Shown: piece by piece, positions 30,871 to 37,008 of the stretch
Numbering within the stretch: the stretch's first letter is position 1
Layout of the letters: each line of letters opens with the position of its first letter
Source: Polystyrenella longa
GTDB taxonomy: Bacteria > Planctomycetota > Planctomycetia > Planctomycetales > Planctomycetaceae
Assembly (NCBI RefSeq): GCF_007750395.1
Contig: NZ_CP036281.1
Coordinates: 5,355,001 to 5,419,000, forward strand
Length of the DNA stretch: 64,000 bases
Direction of reading: 5' to 3'
Notes under the pieces: model-generated
Told to the model about the DNA's origin: nothing
Database searches by the model: none
The model's input: the letters and a program-made list of their open reading frames with translations, nothing else
Position numbers and translations under genes: made by a program

Positions 30871-32790
30871 TTAATCAAGGCCCAGTTTCAGTCGTCCCAC
30901 ATCGGTAAGACGATTGGAACTCCAGCCAGGTTCCCAGGTTTGTTCGACCACAACCTGACGCACTCCGGGGATTTGCTCAAGACGTTCTCGAATGGGGACT
31001 GACTTGGTGGAGTGAACCGAGACGGAACCATCAACGAAGTAGCCGAGTCGCGGACGTCCACGGTGAGGCATCGCCATGACAACCGTGACCACGTCTCCTC
31101 GAACTCGTACGTCATAAACCAGTCCGAGATCAACGATGTTCATATCCGCCGTATAAAGCTGTGCGTCTTTGCAGTCACGTAACCCCGCCCAGATCCGTTG
31201 CTTCAGCTGAGACTGTTCTCCTCCCTCACCCGATCTTGCGAGTTGAGATACCGAACTTGGTGATGACGATAATTCAGCGGAACCCGAGAATGATTGCATC
31301 CCATTAGCGGAGACTTCTAGCGGATTCATCATGCGGCGACGAACACCTTCGATGGTCTCTTTTCCCTTCTCTTTCGTGAAAGGAATCGAAAGGTAAGCGT
31401 TCTTCTGGTGAATTGCCGCTCCCGCTGGAATCTCTTTAACCGGTAATGGATATCGACTCCAGAGATTTCCATGCCAGCGATAGTACATCGTGGGAACGCC
31501 CGAGTGATTCAGCTCCGGTAATCCTTCTGCTTGATGTTCCAGGAACAGAGCCATGATGGAGTCCTGGCTCTGCGAGTTAAAGAAGCCTACGCCCCATAAG
31601 TCATTCAGCTTGTCGGAATCGACATCACCAAAATGTAACTGCCCATCACGATCCATCCACATCTTGTCTGTGAATGATTGACCAGAGAAGACCCATTCAT
31701 CGTCACGGAGTGCAGCCGCTTCAAAATCCTGAACCGCCGTCATGGAACCCGTTTTGTGGAACCAGGGCAGGCCGGTATAAAAACGATATTCCACGTCGAC
31801 ATGCAGACGGGCGGGAGAATAGATGGGATGAACCGGAGAATAGGGGAATCCCCAGCGGCGGACGATCGTGCAGAGTGGGCCTCGGATCACTTCGTAATCG
31901 GGGCAGGTGTCCCACAGGGAAATACGAAACTTTTGAAAGCTATCCTCATCCACATAGTCATGAGCCCAGTCGATTCCGGGAGGCTCTCCATGCCCCTCTC
32001 CACCGGAGAATAGTTCCAGACCATGTTCTCGGCGTAAAGTCATTCGTTCGATTTGGCCCGTTTGTCTGGAAAGCGACACTTTGAAAAAGGCGTTCGAAAT
32101 ATCCAGACCAAAACCTTCCCCTTCAGTCTTCAGATCAGACGGATAGTGGGGTAATTCCGCATCCGGATTGCCGTAGAAAACAAGAACATCTTGTTCCTGG
32201 TTTGGAAGACTGTCGGCCATCCAGAGGATTTTGCAGAAGCGTTCTGCTTTGCGATGCTTTTCGCCAAATACCTGGCACGGAACCTCCACCAGTCGTCCAT
32301 CTTCAATTCGAACAAGACGGACTTCCCGAGTCAGCGATGTCACCTGGTCACTCGGAAAACTTAACGACACTTCAACCGGTTCCGACGTTCTCTTCAATCC
32401 GGCTGTTTCTTTAATCGACAGCAATTTGAAGTATTTCCATCCCCGTGCCCATTGCTTCCCATTCTCCCCCAATACATCGACGTTTTGTAACTGCAGAGTC
32501 TCGATCAACGATGACTCCGGAATTTCCTCTTCGACTTGTGTCTGCAGTACGGTGTCCTTCAGTGAGTGTGTGAGCGACCTGGCGAGATCAAAATCTTTGT
32601 TGTTCCAAGCATCTTCCAGAAGCTTCATTTTAGTTTCGAAGGAATCTGTCCGAGAGAAGGAGTTCTCCAGATTCTGCGCAGACAAACCCTTCGGGGTGAT
32701 TAACATCGTAATCGTGAGTGCAACCGTGCAAAGGAGGACGGGGATCCAGTCCACTCTATGTTGCCCACTTCTACTTTGAATCAGAGGCAT
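30871..32790 (-). CDS. Exported protein with a C-terminal DUF59/MIP18-like domain
   Basis: 639 residues. Residues ~14-38 form a signal peptide or anchor (VLLCTVALTITMLITP). The large middle (~80-480) looks like a beta-rich carbohydrate- or polymer-related domain (WARGWKYFKLL, SNAFFKVSLSRQTGQIERM, YRFYTGLPWFHKTGSM); I cannot assign it firmly. Residues ~528-639 strongly resemble DUF59/MIP18/SufT: NIVDLGLVYDV, RLEQIPGVRQVVVEQTW and EPGW followed by RLKLGLD. The cysteine that often follows the second strand in this family is missing (VVMAMPHRGR). DUF59 proteins normally work in cytoplasmic Fe-S cluster assembly, so export of this domain is odd. Function unknown. Confidence 0.75.
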   Translation of the reverse strand: MPLIQSRSGQHRVDWIPVLLCTVALTITMLITPKGLSAQNLENSFSRTDSFETKMKLLEDAWNNKDFDLARSLTHSLKDTVLQTQVEEEIPESSLIETLQLQNVDVLGENGKQWARGWKYFKLLSIKETAGLKRTSEPVEVSLSFPSDQVTSLTREVRLVRIEDGRLVEVPCQVFGEKHRKAERFCKILWMADSLPNQEQDVLVFYGNPDAELPHYPSDLKTEGEGFGLDISNAFFKVSLSRQTGQIERMTLRREHGLELFSGGEGHGEPPGIDWAHDYVDEDSFQKFRISLWDTCPDYEVIRGPLCTIVRRWGFPYSPVHPIYSPARLHVDVEYRFYTGLPWFHKTGSMTAVQDFEAAALRDDEWVFSGQSFTDKMWMDRDGQLHFGDVDSDKLNDLWGVGFFNSQSQDSIMALFLEHQAEGLPELNHSGVPTMYYRWHGNLWSRYPLPVKEIPAGAAIHQKNAYLSIPFTKEKGKETIEGVRRRMMNPLEVSANGMQSFSGSAELSSSPSSVSQLARSGEGGEQSQLKQRIWAGLRDCKDAQLYTADMNIVDLGLVYDVRVRGDVVTVVMAMPHRGRPRLGYFVDGSVSVHSTKSVPIRERLEQIPGVRQVVVEQTWEPGWSSNRLTDVGRLKLGLD

Positions 32791-33233: not shown

Positions 33234-34019
33234 ATGGCCTTATCAACTCACTGCATTTTTGAGCGGGGTTCCAGCCCCATCATTGCCGCCGCAGTACACA
33301 ACGGACATGACACCCGCGTCGACGTCGATGAACATCTGGCGATGGATGAAAAAGAGCAACGCCGTGAAGAAGACCCGGTCACAGGCGAATGGACCCAGAT
33401 CGCGAAGACGCAGATCGTCGGCTTACGTTCCCGGTTTGAAGTCGATTTGAATCGACCTCGCGATAAGGCTGTATATAAAAAACCGGAAGACGCATGGGGG
33501 ATAGAAGTTTGGGATGAACCTCCTGACCAGGAGTTAATCGAGAAGTCGTTAAAAGAGTACGACGACTTTTATGCCAGCATCCGAGAATTACTCGATGAGA
33601 TGTTGGAACAATACCCTCGGGTCGTCGTTCTTGATTTGCATACGTATAATCAGTTTCGTGAAGGGCCGGAAGGGCAAGCCGCCGATCCGACGTTAAACCC
33701 CGAAGTCAATATTGGGACCGGGACAATGGATCGTATTTACTGGGCTCCTGTTGTGGATCGATTTATCAGTGACCTGAAAACCTACGACTTTCATGGACGC
33801 CATCTCGACGTACGTGAGAATGTGAAGTTCCAGGGTGGTTACTTCGGTCAATGGATACACGAGCATTACCCTGAACGGGTTTGCTCAATTGCTATTGAAT
33901 TCAAAAAGTTCTTCATGGATGAATGGGAGGGTGAACCCGATGCGTATGAAGTAGAATGTATCTATCGGGCTCTCCGATCAACACTTCCCGGAGTCCGAAC
34001 CGCATTGGAGGACATGTGA
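33234..34019 (+). CDS. N-formylglutamate amidohydrolase-like enzyme
   Basis: 261 residues of the N-formylglutamate amidohydrolase (HutG-type, zinc) family. VHNGHDTRVD (His22, His25), LRSRFEVDLNRPRD (65-77) and LDLHTYN (133-139) match the conserved metal- and substrate-binding blocks. Classical members hydrolyse N-formylglutamate in histidine breakdown, but no hut genes are near. Instead it overlaps, by four bases (GTGA), a DUF1704 peptidase gene, which overlaps a glutathione-synthetase-like gene. AGGAG seven bases before the ATG supports the start; the frame runs 20 codons further up without conserved sequence. Inference: it cleaves an amide in a peptide or amino-acid conjugate made by the ATP-grasp enzyme. 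Confidence 0.83.
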   Translation: MALSTHCIFERGSSPIIAAAVHNGHDTRVDVDEHLAMDEKEQRREEDPVTGEWTQIAKTQIVGLRSRFEVDLNRPRDKAVYKKPEDAWGIEVWDEPPDQELIEKSLKEYDDFYASIRELLDEMLEQYPRVVVLDLHTYNQFREGPEGQAADPTLNPEVNIGTGTMDRIYWAPVVDRFISDLKTYDFHGRHLDVRENVKFQGGYFGQWIHEHYPERVCSIAIEFKKFFMDEWEGEPDAYEVECIYRALRSTLPGVRTALEDM

Positions 34020-35962
34020 TCGATTCTGACCCAGAATCTACTATAGAAGACGAGGATCGCGAACTGCGTTATCAGGACATCAACGAACTGGTCCAAAGCA
34101 GGCTGTCGCAGAATCAAAGAATCCGTCGAAACCTCCCCGGTGACGGCCGCCTGCGTATCGATCGGCAATTACCCTTTTTGTGTGTCTATCGCACGCCTCC
34201 TGATCGCTCCGACCCAGGAACTGTTGAACTGGTGACTACGGAAGCGGCCTACCTTTTCGCTTCAGGGGACGAAGCGGATCTGGTTGGTGTGACCGATCTA
34301 TGTCAGAAAATAAACTCCATCATTCAGGAACACTTCGGGACGTTTCTGCTGATCGAGATCTGGTCCGAGCCCCGAAACACGCGAGGGCTCACTTTCGAAA
34401 TAGTTTCCCCTGATGTCGAGACGATTCCTTCCACGATTGATACGCTCCATACAGCTTTGTCGGAGATCAAAATCCGTCACGAAAGAGCGAACGTCGTCAC
34501 CCGTACCACCGACGTCGTAACGCCACCGGGGCTGCCTCCTCTGAATGCAGTTGCCCCGGAATCTAACCGCTCTGGATTTTGTGTGCTGGGATTGTCCGTC
34601 AGTCCCATCTATCGCGATCCACAGAGCGGTGCCGTTTTCCCGATGATACTGCATTCAATTCGTCACCAACTGGCAGCCGCGATCAGAAAGACAGTGGCTC
34701 AGTTTACTGGAACTGAAAATGACCCCTCCACGGACTCAGATGAGGAGGCATTGGAAAACGGAGACTCTTATCATTCACTGGGCCCCTCTTCTTTGGTGAA
34801 GGCCGCTCGACTGGTTGATCAGCAGTTGGGAGAAGTCTCAGAATCGTTCGACTTCCTTTTGCAGGTCACCCCCACTAATACGGAAGAAGCCCGTCAGGAA
34901 TTCTACGACAGTGGGTGCAAGAAGACTCCCCGCTTTATTTACCGGCCACTTCCTTACCGTCCCAGCATATTGAAACGGCGCCTGTTCGATATTGAAATCG
35001 AACGGATTGAAGATCCCACGCTCGCGCATATCCTCTGGGAGAAGCAGGAAGAGATCGACCGAAAGCTTTCGGCATTGCGAGATTTGGACACACCAGAGTT
35101 CCTCTACAACAGCCTGCAATTATATGGCAGCGTCCAACCAGATTTACTCCATCTGTCCCGCGAAATTCTGAACCGAGTTTCTGACAGCGAAACCCTATCG
35201 GAAGACGATGAGCCTCGGCGAGTGCTTTCAGGTGATTTCATCGAACGGGCACGTGATGAATTCGACTATTACCACTTAAAAATGAACGAATTCAATGCGA
35301 CTGTGGAAGAGTGCGACGAAATAGCGGCCGGTATCATGGTTTCACATGGACGCTTACTCGTGTCCAAGAATTTGAACATCCCTGCCGAAAGAGTCGAACC
35401 CTTACTCCACCATGAAATTGGGACTCACCTGCTCACTTATTTTAATGGTCGTTGTCAGCCGTTCCGACAATTGTACGCGGGTCTCGCTGGATATGAAGAA
35501 TTGCAGGAAGGCCTGGCGGTACTGTCTGAGTACCTGGTTGGCGGTTTGACGACGAATCGCGTCGGAACATTGGCAGGCCGGGTAGTGGCGGTCGATTCTC
35601 TGACGAAAGGGAATTCGTTCGCCCAGACGTTTGAAATGCTCCACCATGAATTTGGATTTTCTCAACAACGATCATTCACAATTACATTGAGAGTGTACCG
35701 AGGAGGAGGATTGACGAAGGACGTAATCTACCTTCGTGGTTTAGTAAGCCTTCTCAAATATCTCTCCGCTGGTCACGATATTGAACCTCTTTATGTGGGT
35801 AAGATTGGTTTGCATCATGTTCCGTATGTACAGGAACTGCGTCGCAGAAAAATCATTGTTGCTCCACGCATTCTACCCCGATTTTGGGACGATGACAAAA
35901 TCCGAGAGCGTCTCGACGCTTGCCGAAATATGTCGGTCCTCACACTTCTGGAGACTAACTGA
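34016..35962 (+). CDS. DUF1704 (MATCAP-like) metallopeptidase, QEGLP-motif family
   Basis: 648 residues. The C-terminal half contains the zinc-peptidase signature HHEIGTHLLTYFNG (around residue 465) and, about 30 residues on, ELQEGLAVLSEY. That is the position of the motif that gives the family its name, flavohemoglobin expression-modulating QEGLP protein; here it reads QEGLA. The N-terminal half has no recognised domain. The start is a GTG at 34016 with GGAGG four bases upstream, overlapping the amidohydrolase stop; an upstream ATG at 33956 would read through conserved sequence of the preceding gene. It overlaps the following ligase by one base. The eukaryotic relatives are tubulin tyrosine carboxypeptidases, so a C-terminal amino-acid-removing activity is plausible but unproven. 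Confidence 0.85.
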   Translation: MIDSDPESTIEDEDRELRYQDINELVQSRLSQNQRIRRNLPGDGRLRIDRQLPFLCVYRTPPDRSDPGTVELVTTEAAYLFASGDEADLVGVTDLCQKINSIIQEHFGTFLLIEIWSEPRNTRGLTFEIVSPDVETIPSTIDTLHTALSEIKIRHERANVVTRTTDVVTPPGLPPLNAVAPESNRSGFCVLGLSVSPIYRDPQSGAVFPMILHSIRHQLAAAIRKTVAQFTGTENDPSTDSDEEALENGDSYHSLGPSSLVKAARLVDQQLGEVSESFDFLLQVTPTNTEEARQEFYDSGCKKTPRFIYRPLPYRPSILKRRLFDIEIERIEDPTLAHILWEKQEEIDRKLSALRDLDTPEFLYNSLQLYGSVQPDLLHLSREILNRVSDSETLSEDDEPRRVLSGDFIERARDEFDYYHLKMNEFNATVEECDEIAAGIMVSHGRLLVSKNLNIPAERVEPLLHHEIGTHLLTYFNGRCQPFRQLYAGLAGYEELQEGLAVLSEYLVGGLTTNRVGTLAGRVVAVDSLTKGNSFAQTFEMLHHEFGFSQQRSFTITLRVYRGGGLTKDVIYLRGLVSLLKYLSAGHDIEPLYVGKIGLHHVPYVQELRRRKIIVAPRILPRFWDDDKIRERLDACRNMSVLTLLETN

Positions 35963-37008
35963 TGAAAATTGCATTCGTAGTTAATGATGTGATGACTGAA
36001 AAAGCGGTCTATACCACAACCCGTCTGGCGTTAACCGCCGTAAGAATGGGGCATGAAAGTTATTACCTGGGCGTAGGAGACTTCATTTATGCCCCGAACG
36101 GTTCCATTCAAGCGCACGTTCGTTCGGCGAATGGGGGAAGCCACGAGTTGCTCAAAGAATACCTGGATGCTGTTCAAGACGAAGAAACCGAAAGTGAACG
36201 TATCAGTCTTGATGACTTAGATGTCGTTCTGCTCAGAAACGATCCCTCGGATGACACATCAGAACGTTCCTGGGCGCAAACGAGCGGCATACTTTTCGGA
36301 CAGTTAGCCGCCGCCCGGGGAGTCATTGTACTGAATGATCCGTTCAGCCTCGCTAATGCCTTAAACAAAACATACTTTCAGCATTTCCCCGAGCAGGTAC
36401 GCCCGAAAACGTGTATCAGTCGCGACATTAAAGACATTAAAACCTTCATAGAAGACCAGAAGGACAAAGTCGTGATCAAACCGCTGCAAGGATCTGGAGG
36501 GCAGAGTGTCTTTTTAATCGGTGAAGACGAAAAAGCCAACTTGAACCAGATGATTGAGGCGGTGGTTCGTGACGGTTTCTGCATCGCCCAGGAATATTTA
36601 CCAGGTGCAGTCAACGGAGATGTTCGATTGTTCGTGATGAATGGTCGACCTCTGATGAAGGATGGTGAGTATGCTGCTTTCCGTCGACGAAATGATACGG
36701 GAGATGCGCGTAGTAATATGCACTCGGGAGGGAAGTGCGAAGCGGCAGAAGTGACTGATGCCATGCTGGAACTGGTAGAGATGGTTCGTCCAAAATTATT
36801 GCGAGATGGAATGTTTCTGGTCGGACTCGATATCGTTGACGATAAACTGATGGAGATCAACGTCTTCAGTCCCGGTGGTCTTGGCAGCAGCGAGCAAGTC
36901 ACGGGCGTGGACTTCACCGAAGCCATCATTCGAGATCTGGAACGGAAAATCAAATACCGATCCTACTACGGTTCCCACATGAGCAACCAAGACATTGCCT
37001 CGATGTGA
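35962..37008 (+). CDS. GshB/RimK-like ATP-grasp ligase
   Basis: 348 residues. An N-terminal substrate-binding domain (MKIAFVVNDVMTEKAVYTT) resembles glutathione synthetase. The ATP-grasp fold follows: VVIKPLQGSGGQSVFLI (ATP-binding glycine loop, ~170-186), AQEYLPG, and the metal-binding MEINVFSPGG near residue 290. These enzymes join a carboxylate to an amine through an acyl phosphate. No gamma-glutamylcysteine ligase (GshA) gene is next to it, so glutathione itself is not certain to be the product. TGATG links it to the DUF1704 gene with a one-base overlap, so three genes form one tight operon. Cytoplasmic. Confidence 0.88.
   Translation: MKIAFVVNDVMTEKAVYTTTRLALTAVRMGHESYYLGVGDFIYAPNGSIQAHVRSANGGSHELLKEYLDAVQDEETESERISLDDLDVVLLRNDPSDDTSERSWAQTSGILFGQLAAARGVIVLNDPFSLANALNKTYFQHFPEQVRPKTCISRDIKDIKTFIEDQKDKVVIKPLQGSGGQSVFLIGEDEKANLNQMIEAVVRDGFCIAQEYLPGAVNGDVRLFVMNGRPLMKDGEYAAFRRRNDTGDARSNMHSGGKCEAAEVTDAMLELVEMVRPKLLRDGMFLVGLDIVDDKLMEINVFSPGGLGSSEQVTGVDFTEAIIRDLERKIKYRSYYGSHMSNQDIASM

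Follow-up and report, generated by a model that had tools for sequence, protein, structure and literature searches.

Genes and domains at the locus

The window analysed here, i.e., a stretch of 64,000 nucleotides from the planctomycete Polystyrenella longa (contig NZ_CP036281.1, positions 5,355,001 to 5,419,000), contains a group of three overlapping genes, whose products are an amidohydrolase of the N-formylglutamate amidohydrolase (FGase) family, a long DUF1704 metallopeptidase related to the tubulin carboxypeptidase MATCAP, and a GshB-like ATP-grasp ligase. They constitute a real and widespread three-enzyme system, which is probably mis-annotated. A sequence-only reading of this DNA had described the three genes as overlapping by four and one bases (GTGA, TGATG), and its coordinates and overlaps were found to be correct. 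The features are as follows (positions in the window):

33234..34019, forward strand: FGase-family amidohydrolase, 261 amino acids; ATG start, gaggag stretch upstream
34016..35962, forward strand: long DUF1704/QEGLA protein of 648 amino acids, starting with GTG; MATCAP metallopeptidase domain preceded by a degenerate FGase domain
35962..37008, forward strand: GshB-like ATP-grasp ligase, 348 amino acids, NF009110/PRK12458 subfamily
34007..34019, forward strand: junction 1 (FGase/MATCAP), GTGA overlap of 4 nucleotides at 34016-34019, ggagga at 34007-34012; from the sequence
35960..35964, forward strand: junction 2 (MATCAP/ligase), TGATG overlap of 1 nucleotide; from the sequence
34109..34717, forward strand: degenerate (pseudo-)FGase domain, residues ~32-234; from hhalign and a structure match of the AlphaFold2 (AF2) model
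34856..35959, forward strand: MATCAP catalytic domain, residues 281-648; from the AF2 model
35411..35428, forward strand: HEIGTH zinc motif, residues 466-471; the same six letters occur in human MATCAP 7z5g
35504..35518, forward strand: QEGLA motif, residues 497-501; Q497, E498 and G499 invariant in 53 of 53 sequences

The first product matches the Pfam family PF05013 with 73.5 bits (cut-off 28.9) and contains the residues of that family, H22-x-G-H25, D134-x-H136, E222 and K225. Among 38 aligned sequences H22, G24, D134, H136, E222 and K225 are invariant, and H25 is present in 36; a catalytic role of H22, H25, D134, H136, E222 and K225 is presumed here. The AF2 model of the free FGase (pLDDT 94.0) had as its best structural match the N-formylglutamate amidohydrolase 2q7s (Z 24.0, root mean square deviation (rmsd) 2.7, 238 aligned), and it is, as modelled, a true FGase. 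An identity with HutG was rejected on the score with the TIGR02017 equivalog, which was 28.3 bits versus a cut-off of 278.75. Thus, the enzyme shares with N-formylglutamate amidohydrolase/HutG (PF05013, TIGR02017) the fold and the invariant HxGH, DxH and E residues, but differs in this score, in the lack of hut genes among the scanned neighbours and in its position beside, or fused to, MATCAP.

The second product reached 311.9 bits with PF08014 (Pfam cut-off 27) and 349.1 bits with TIGR02421 (cut-off 338.65). AF2 modelled the 648-residue protein from 53 aligned sequences with an overall pLDDT of 89.8 and pTM of 0.75, and human MATCAP (7z6s/7z5g) was matched by residues 281-648 (Z 24.9, rmsd 3.2, 297 aligned). 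H466, E467 and H471 of HEIGTH are invariant in all 53 sequences, and E498 of QEGLA is presumably, by analogy, the third zinc ligand. The PF08014 score, HEIGTH with the downstream glutamate and the fold place the protein in DUF1704/MATCAP, in line with the earlier suggestion of a zinc site in a MATCAP relative. With the MATCAP/TMCP tubulin carboxypeptidases (PF08014, KIAA0895L) it has in common the fold, HEIGTH and a conserved downstream E-G-L-A stretch, whereas the identity with human MATCAP is 20% in the structural alignment, the operon form carries a degenerate FGase domain and stands in an operon, and its peptidase activity is predicted by homology.

This additional domain, which comprises the N-terminal ~230 residues, had escaped the sequence-only reading. 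Comparison with the profile of the operon FGase by hhalign yielded a local probability of 90.9 (E 1.2e-6 for one comparison, 9% identity) and a global one of 73.6. In a second look with VIA-align, residues 41-234 were matched to FGase 2q7s (Z 13.2, 174 aligned, rmsd 3.0), then to 2odf (Z 11.4) and, behind the FGases, to M14 carboxypeptidases near Z 10; plain Foldseek with the 648-residue model had no FGase among the 50 matches listed, and only MATCAP fell below E 0.001. The domain has no counterparts of the histidines of FGase, while all 53 sequences share R59 and E114.

Conservation of the unit

Profile searches for the three families were carried out with 195 planctomycete genomes. PF08014 was found in 23 of them, an operon-type MATCAP in 13 of these, an operon-type FGase in 12 genomes and an NF009110 ligase over cut-off in 11; all three families coincide in 11 genomes (Fisher P 4e-17 for FGase and ligase, 3e-18 for FGase and MATCAP, 3e-16 for ligase and MATCAP), and none of the 195 possessed an FGase match or an over-cut-off ligase without an operon-type MATCAP. 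The three genes lie close together on one contig in eight of the 11 and are split over contigs in G096, G118 and G143. A degenerate FGase domain is present in 11 of the 13 operon-type MATCAP genomes; G166 contains a form fused to an FGase (see below), and G096 has neither domain within the 664 bases upstream on its contig, its MATCAP being counted as operon-type because of 485 bits with the operon profile (partnerless MATCAPs at most 248) and a position beside the ligase. Partial sets were also seen. G119 has the FGase gene and a MATCAP gene that is interrupted by a stop close to the end of its contig, with no ligase over cut-off; in G049 the peptidase is accompanied by a ligase that narrowly misses the cut-off (399 bits), with no FGase match; and G127 has a ligase match of 202 bits, below cut-off, without any MATCAP.

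In 10 of the 23 PF08014 genomes the sole MATCAP genes are ones without FGase or operon ligase, and in eight planctomycete neighbourhoods (L114-L121) short MATCAP-like genes, which form a second DUF1704 group, have neither partner nearby; the unit is thus tied to one part of DUF1704. A different ATP-grasp protein (52 bits) is encoded near the gene in L114. In the window's own family PF08014 occurred in only four of 20 sampled genomes, i.e., the unit is patchy.

For a wider comparison 80 loci were used, which were the best 80 of at least 567 relatives among at least 591 pattern matches, with one genome per species. They were selected by likeness to the long MATCAP form and therefore favour it; nine are from Pontibacter, and L032 and G076 are apparently one genome seen twice. 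According to the titles of the records, many of which are from metagenome bins, the loci belong to Planctomycetes, Calditrichaeota, Poribacteria, Gemmatimonadota, Verrucomicrobia, Kiritimatiellae, Bacteroidetes, Acidobacteria, Actinomycetota, Campylobacterales, Polyangiaceae and several Proteobacteria. All three genes were present in 62 of the 80, the ligase in 75 and the FGase in 66; the incomplete loci consisted of ligase and peptidase (13), FGase and peptidase (four) or the peptidase alone (one), and four of the five loci lacking a ligase reach a contig end. Five additional loci that were scanned with them are left out of these counts. The order FGase, MATCAP, ligase on one strand was found in 55 loci, with junction 1 overlapping or not longer than 30 bases in 47 of them and junction 2 not longer than 49 bases in 51, as measured to the longest possible start. 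Pairwise correlations of gene-tree distances (rho 0.62, 0.71 and 0.53), which include shared species history, exceeded the permutation maxima of 0.23-0.27. The unit is also present on pSymB of Sinorhizobium meliloti and on pAA02 of Aminobacter, and 127 plasmid records match the MATCAP protein.

That the three genes had become neighbours by accident was rejected on the co-occurrence in the 195 genomes and the 80 loci; with the linked gene order also against it, and nothing found in its favour, the probability of this explanation is practically negligible. The earlier note had proposed a dedicated unit of one maker and two cutters of amide bonds and had suggested looking for conservation of the three genes together; the unit does recur, in 11 planctomycete genomes and in 62 loci across phyla.

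A second architecture was encountered in L007/L122 (one genome), Vibrio L110 and Photobacterium L138, where FGase and MATCAP are fused. The FGase domain of these proteins scores 147-171 bits with the operon FGase profile and occupies the position of the degenerate domain in the long MATCAP; in L122 and L138 the ligase gene directly precedes the fused gene. In L136 ligase, FGase and a short MATCAP follow each other in that order, unfused. Comparison of these fused or reordered loci with the long-MATCAP loci indicates two lineages of different build in which this set of three activities is repeated. Tandem ligases, up to three, were found in L035, L040, L061, L063 and L070, and L063, L035, L061 and L070 combine three ligases with two or three genes for long MATCAPs, while one FGase was seen in the stretch covered. 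Such clusters, in which ligases and peptidases number as many as three each beside one FGase, would be expected if several residues are handled in turn.

Two side observations concern the same families. The ligase gene is split into two open frames in L050 (9890-10933) and L095 (9818-10878), possibly as a pseudogene or through sequencing error, and a MATCAP-like protein with 25% identity is encoded in the record of Pseudomonas phage Y1 (OQ572403, 63515-64597).

Within the window, the 10 neighbouring proteins scanned with Pfam appear unrelated to the unit: a SpoIIE phosphatase, an FtsX/ABC pair, DUF488 and DKNYY proteins, an AAA_27 protein with a metallophosphoesterase, an alginate-export porin and two proteins without Pfam match. 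No hut or gshA gene was among these 10, in agreement with the earlier note. A protein of 639 amino acids with no Pfam match at E 0.001 is encoded next to the operon (30871-32790, reverse strand).

The ligase and the glutathione question

The ligase matches the Pfam families GSH-S_ATP (166.2 bits, cut-off 23), GSH-S_N (45.7, cut-off 21.3) and RimK (65.7, cut-off 21); TTL was not among the seven families matched at E up to 0.1. It is a member of the NF009110/PRK12458 'glutathione synthetase' subfamily (454 bits, cut-off 408), the functional name of which looks as if it had been inherited from GshB, and we know of no test of the function of this subfamily. Both GshB equivalog cut-offs were missed, with 202.4 versus 272 bits for NF003573 and 184.6 versus 299.05 for TIGR01380. 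In a tree of 66 sequences, including 53 operon ligases, nine bona fide GshBs of the same genomes and GshB of E. coli, the latter ten were separated from all 53 operon ligases with a support of 0.97; L135, a relative below the ligase cut-off, groups with GshB.

Of the positions conserved in GshB (E. coli numbers), presumably including catalytic and substrate-facing ones, R86, K125, K160, R210, R225, D273, E281 and N283 are retained in 51-53 of the 53 operon ligases; R233 is also kept. At least 52 of the 53 have N, F and G in place of D9, T285 and T288, E231, I275 and T280 are also changed in a fixed way, and a loop reads NVFSPGG versus NVTSPT in GshB, i.e., SPGG for SPT. Whole-genome searches were performed with 41 genomes, i.e., those of 40 of the 80 loci and the window's own. 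A true GshB over cut-off coexists with the operon ligase in nine of the 41; the gshA families were represented by GCS2 in 21 and by PF04262 in four, and neither Pfam type was found in 16, some of which are incomplete bins. The own genome contains one GCS2-type gshA-like homologue away from the operon, and no PF04262.

The ligase could thus be taken for the organism's GshB, acting in ordinary synthesis of glutathione (or ophthalmate), and the annotation as glutathione synthetase, the eight retained positions and the GCS2 homologue would be in accord with this. The ATP-grasp and N-terminal GSH-S_N domains are common to the ligase and GshB. A plain glutathione gene was nevertheless rejected on the failed equivalog cut-offs, the position outside the GshB group and the coexistence with true GshB; together with the exchanges at D9, T285 and T288, the SPGG loop and the 16 genomes in which neither gshA family was found, these make such a role very improbable. 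The sequence-only reading had likewise doubted ordinary glutathione synthesis, and had regarded a full set of GshB substrate residues with a gshA gene elsewhere as the sign of it: most positions are indeed kept and a GCS2 gene does exist, but the ligase fails the equivalogs, has a loop of its own and stands beside true GshB in nine genomes. Its suggestion of a glutathione-like thiol as product found no support, in view of the genomes in which gshA was not found.

Likely osmotic or ionic setting, possible function and related systems

An osmotic or ionic setting of the operon, which was absent from the earlier note, is likely. In the 80 loci, with Pontibacter counted as one, several families recur as neighbours, each in a minority: MscS (nine), CorA (five), a CitMHS/TrkA-C transporter (five), MgtE (four), an amino-acid-permease/SLC12-like protein (three) and a Castor/Pollux-type channel (three). 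At distance cut-offs which were chosen after seeing the data, and with tests that ignore contig ends and kinship, MscS lies within 10 kb in at least eight of the 41 genomes (0.90 expected, P 2e-6) and within 13 kb in at least 10 (1.28 or 1.16 expected, depending on the counting of multiple loci; P 3e-7 or 1e-7), and CorA within 10 kb in four (0.20 expected, P 4e-5) and within 13.2 kb in six. Linkage of the genes to MscS and CorA is shown for some relatives. The response regulators found next to 17 loci were regarded as a chance association in view of their abundance (an estimate). Other observations are an orphan short DUF1704 gene about 1 kb from betA, betB and betI, for glycine betaine synthesis, in Pseudoalteromonas (L113, 4902-6182), possibly a further osmotic link, and, in L030, L101, L105 and L108 from bacteria that are not related to each other, a membrane protein of the BrkB/YihY family encoded close to the operon.

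Expression data exist for a relative. In the cited part of a study of Photobacterium damselae by RNA-seq at 1% versus 3% NaCl, A0J47_RS17020 (GshB) was up 38.4-fold and A0J47_RS17025 (QEGLA) 27.5-fold, both among the genes most induced at low salt, and RimK appears in the same table with 52-fold (PMC10308900). The consecutive locus tags and the relative Photobacterium sp. GJ3 (L138) suggest that this pair represents the fused lineage of the present system.

The family reactions are known: ligases of this type extend a C-terminal carboxylate, MATCAP removes a C-terminal residue, and FGase cuts an acyl-glutamate amide. Since opposite reactions of ligase and MATCAP are encoded together, a cycle would be expected rather than a one-way pathway, and the unit probably adds and removes residues on a peptide or protein upon salt or osmotic change. 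As a tentative proposal, to which we would give somewhat less than an even chance, the three enzymes form an amide-bond cycle, probably in the cytosol, which tunes a soluble glutamyl peptide when ionic strength or osmolarity changes. The ligase would couple an amino acid to the C-terminal carboxylate of an acceptor that contains glutamate and is more probably a soluble peptide than a protein; the peptidase, by homology a C-terminal exopeptidase, would take the added residue off, and the FGase would cleave a (gamma-)glutamyl or N-acyl amide in this compound. The degenerate domain could serve as a docking or substrate-holding scaffold, perhaps left over after an FGase-MATCAP fusion had acquired a separate, active FGase; this order of fusion and duplication is conjectural.

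Several points weigh against this proposal, apart from the manner in which the distances were chosen and tested. In 13 of the 80 loci no FGase gene lies near those of the ligase and the peptidase, so that the FGase may not always be needed, and Vibrio L110 has the fusion with no ligase found in the stretch beside it. MscS and CorA often neighbour each other, and the two enrichments are thus not independent; 31 of the 41 genomes are without MscS within 13 kb among the matches listed. At the own locus no ion-channel gene was among the 10 neighbours scanned, and in the own genome the three MscS matches listed, out of four, and both CorA matches are more than 2 Mb from the operon. The assignment of the P. 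damselae pair rests on the relative GJ3, and the cited passages of the paper do not mention an FGase (PMC10308900).

Two other functions were considered. In salvage, FGase and MATCAP would break down imported or damaged material (peptides, N-acyl amino acids), the ligase would reuse the parts, and the osmotic link would be incidental. Two of the three enzymes are hydrolases, and the named relatives of the FGase belong to histidine breakdown; no transporter family recurs beyond a minority of the 80 loci, however, no hut gene was found among the scanned neighbours in the window, and the FGase is far below the HutG cut-off, so that salvage appears rather improbable. Somewhat less doubtful, but still unlikely, is a reversible tagging of proteins, comparable to RimK on ribosomal protein S6 or to the tubulin tail cycle, in which the ligase would extend a protein C-terminus or a glutamate side chain, and MATCAP and FGase would remove the addition. 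The RimK match of the ligase and the induction of RimK at low salt in P. damselae would be consistent with this, as would the action of human MATCAP/TMCP enzymes on tubulin C-terminal tails (PMC10499314). The ligase, on the other hand, is nearest to GshB, a small-peptide enzyme, most of whose conserved positions are kept, and no recurring candidate target gene was seen in the neighbourhood clusters, which are partly annotated. The soluble glutamyl peptide is favoured as the candidate acceptor.

Among known systems, the tubulin tail cycle, which consists of TTL/TTLL ligases, MATCAP/VASH and the CCP deglutamylases, has three fold classes in common with the operon, i.e., ATP-grasp ligase, MATCAP and M14-like hydrolase. 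It differs in that the operon ligase has no TTL Pfam match, no tubulin target is known, and the eukaryotic genes do not form an operon. A bolder reading, which we hold to be improbable, is that the operon could be the bacterial counterpart, perhaps the ancestor, of the tubulin tail code, with an ATP-grasp writer and two erasers (MATCAP and the M14-like FGase) reversibly altering a protein C-terminus with ionic or osmotic conditions. The NAGGN osmolyte system likewise combines an ATP-grasp peptide maker and a peptidase in an osmotic setting; its ligase is fused to a GNAT domain, whereas none was among the Pfam matches of the operon ligase, and the peptidase families differ.

The families are known; their combination and the pseudo-domain were not met, and no description of the three genes as one system was found, in the accessible parts of the open-licence PMC literature. 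Iyer and colleagues reportedly surveyed the ATP-grasp amidoligases in 2009 and may have mentioned the neighbourhood, which is therefore not claimed to be unpublished. New here are the degenerate FGase domain on the peptidase and the second lineage, in which a single FGase-MATCAP chain is encoded behind the ligase. The unit is carried under the apparently misleading names 'glutathione synthetase', 'flavohemoglobin expression-modulating QEGLA' and 'N-formylglutamate amidohydrolase', and recognition as one system would correct these labels. The bacterial relatives of MATCAP would gain a ligase as partner and possibly a link to stress, and one could test in bacteria where the fold of the tubulin detyrosinase came from.

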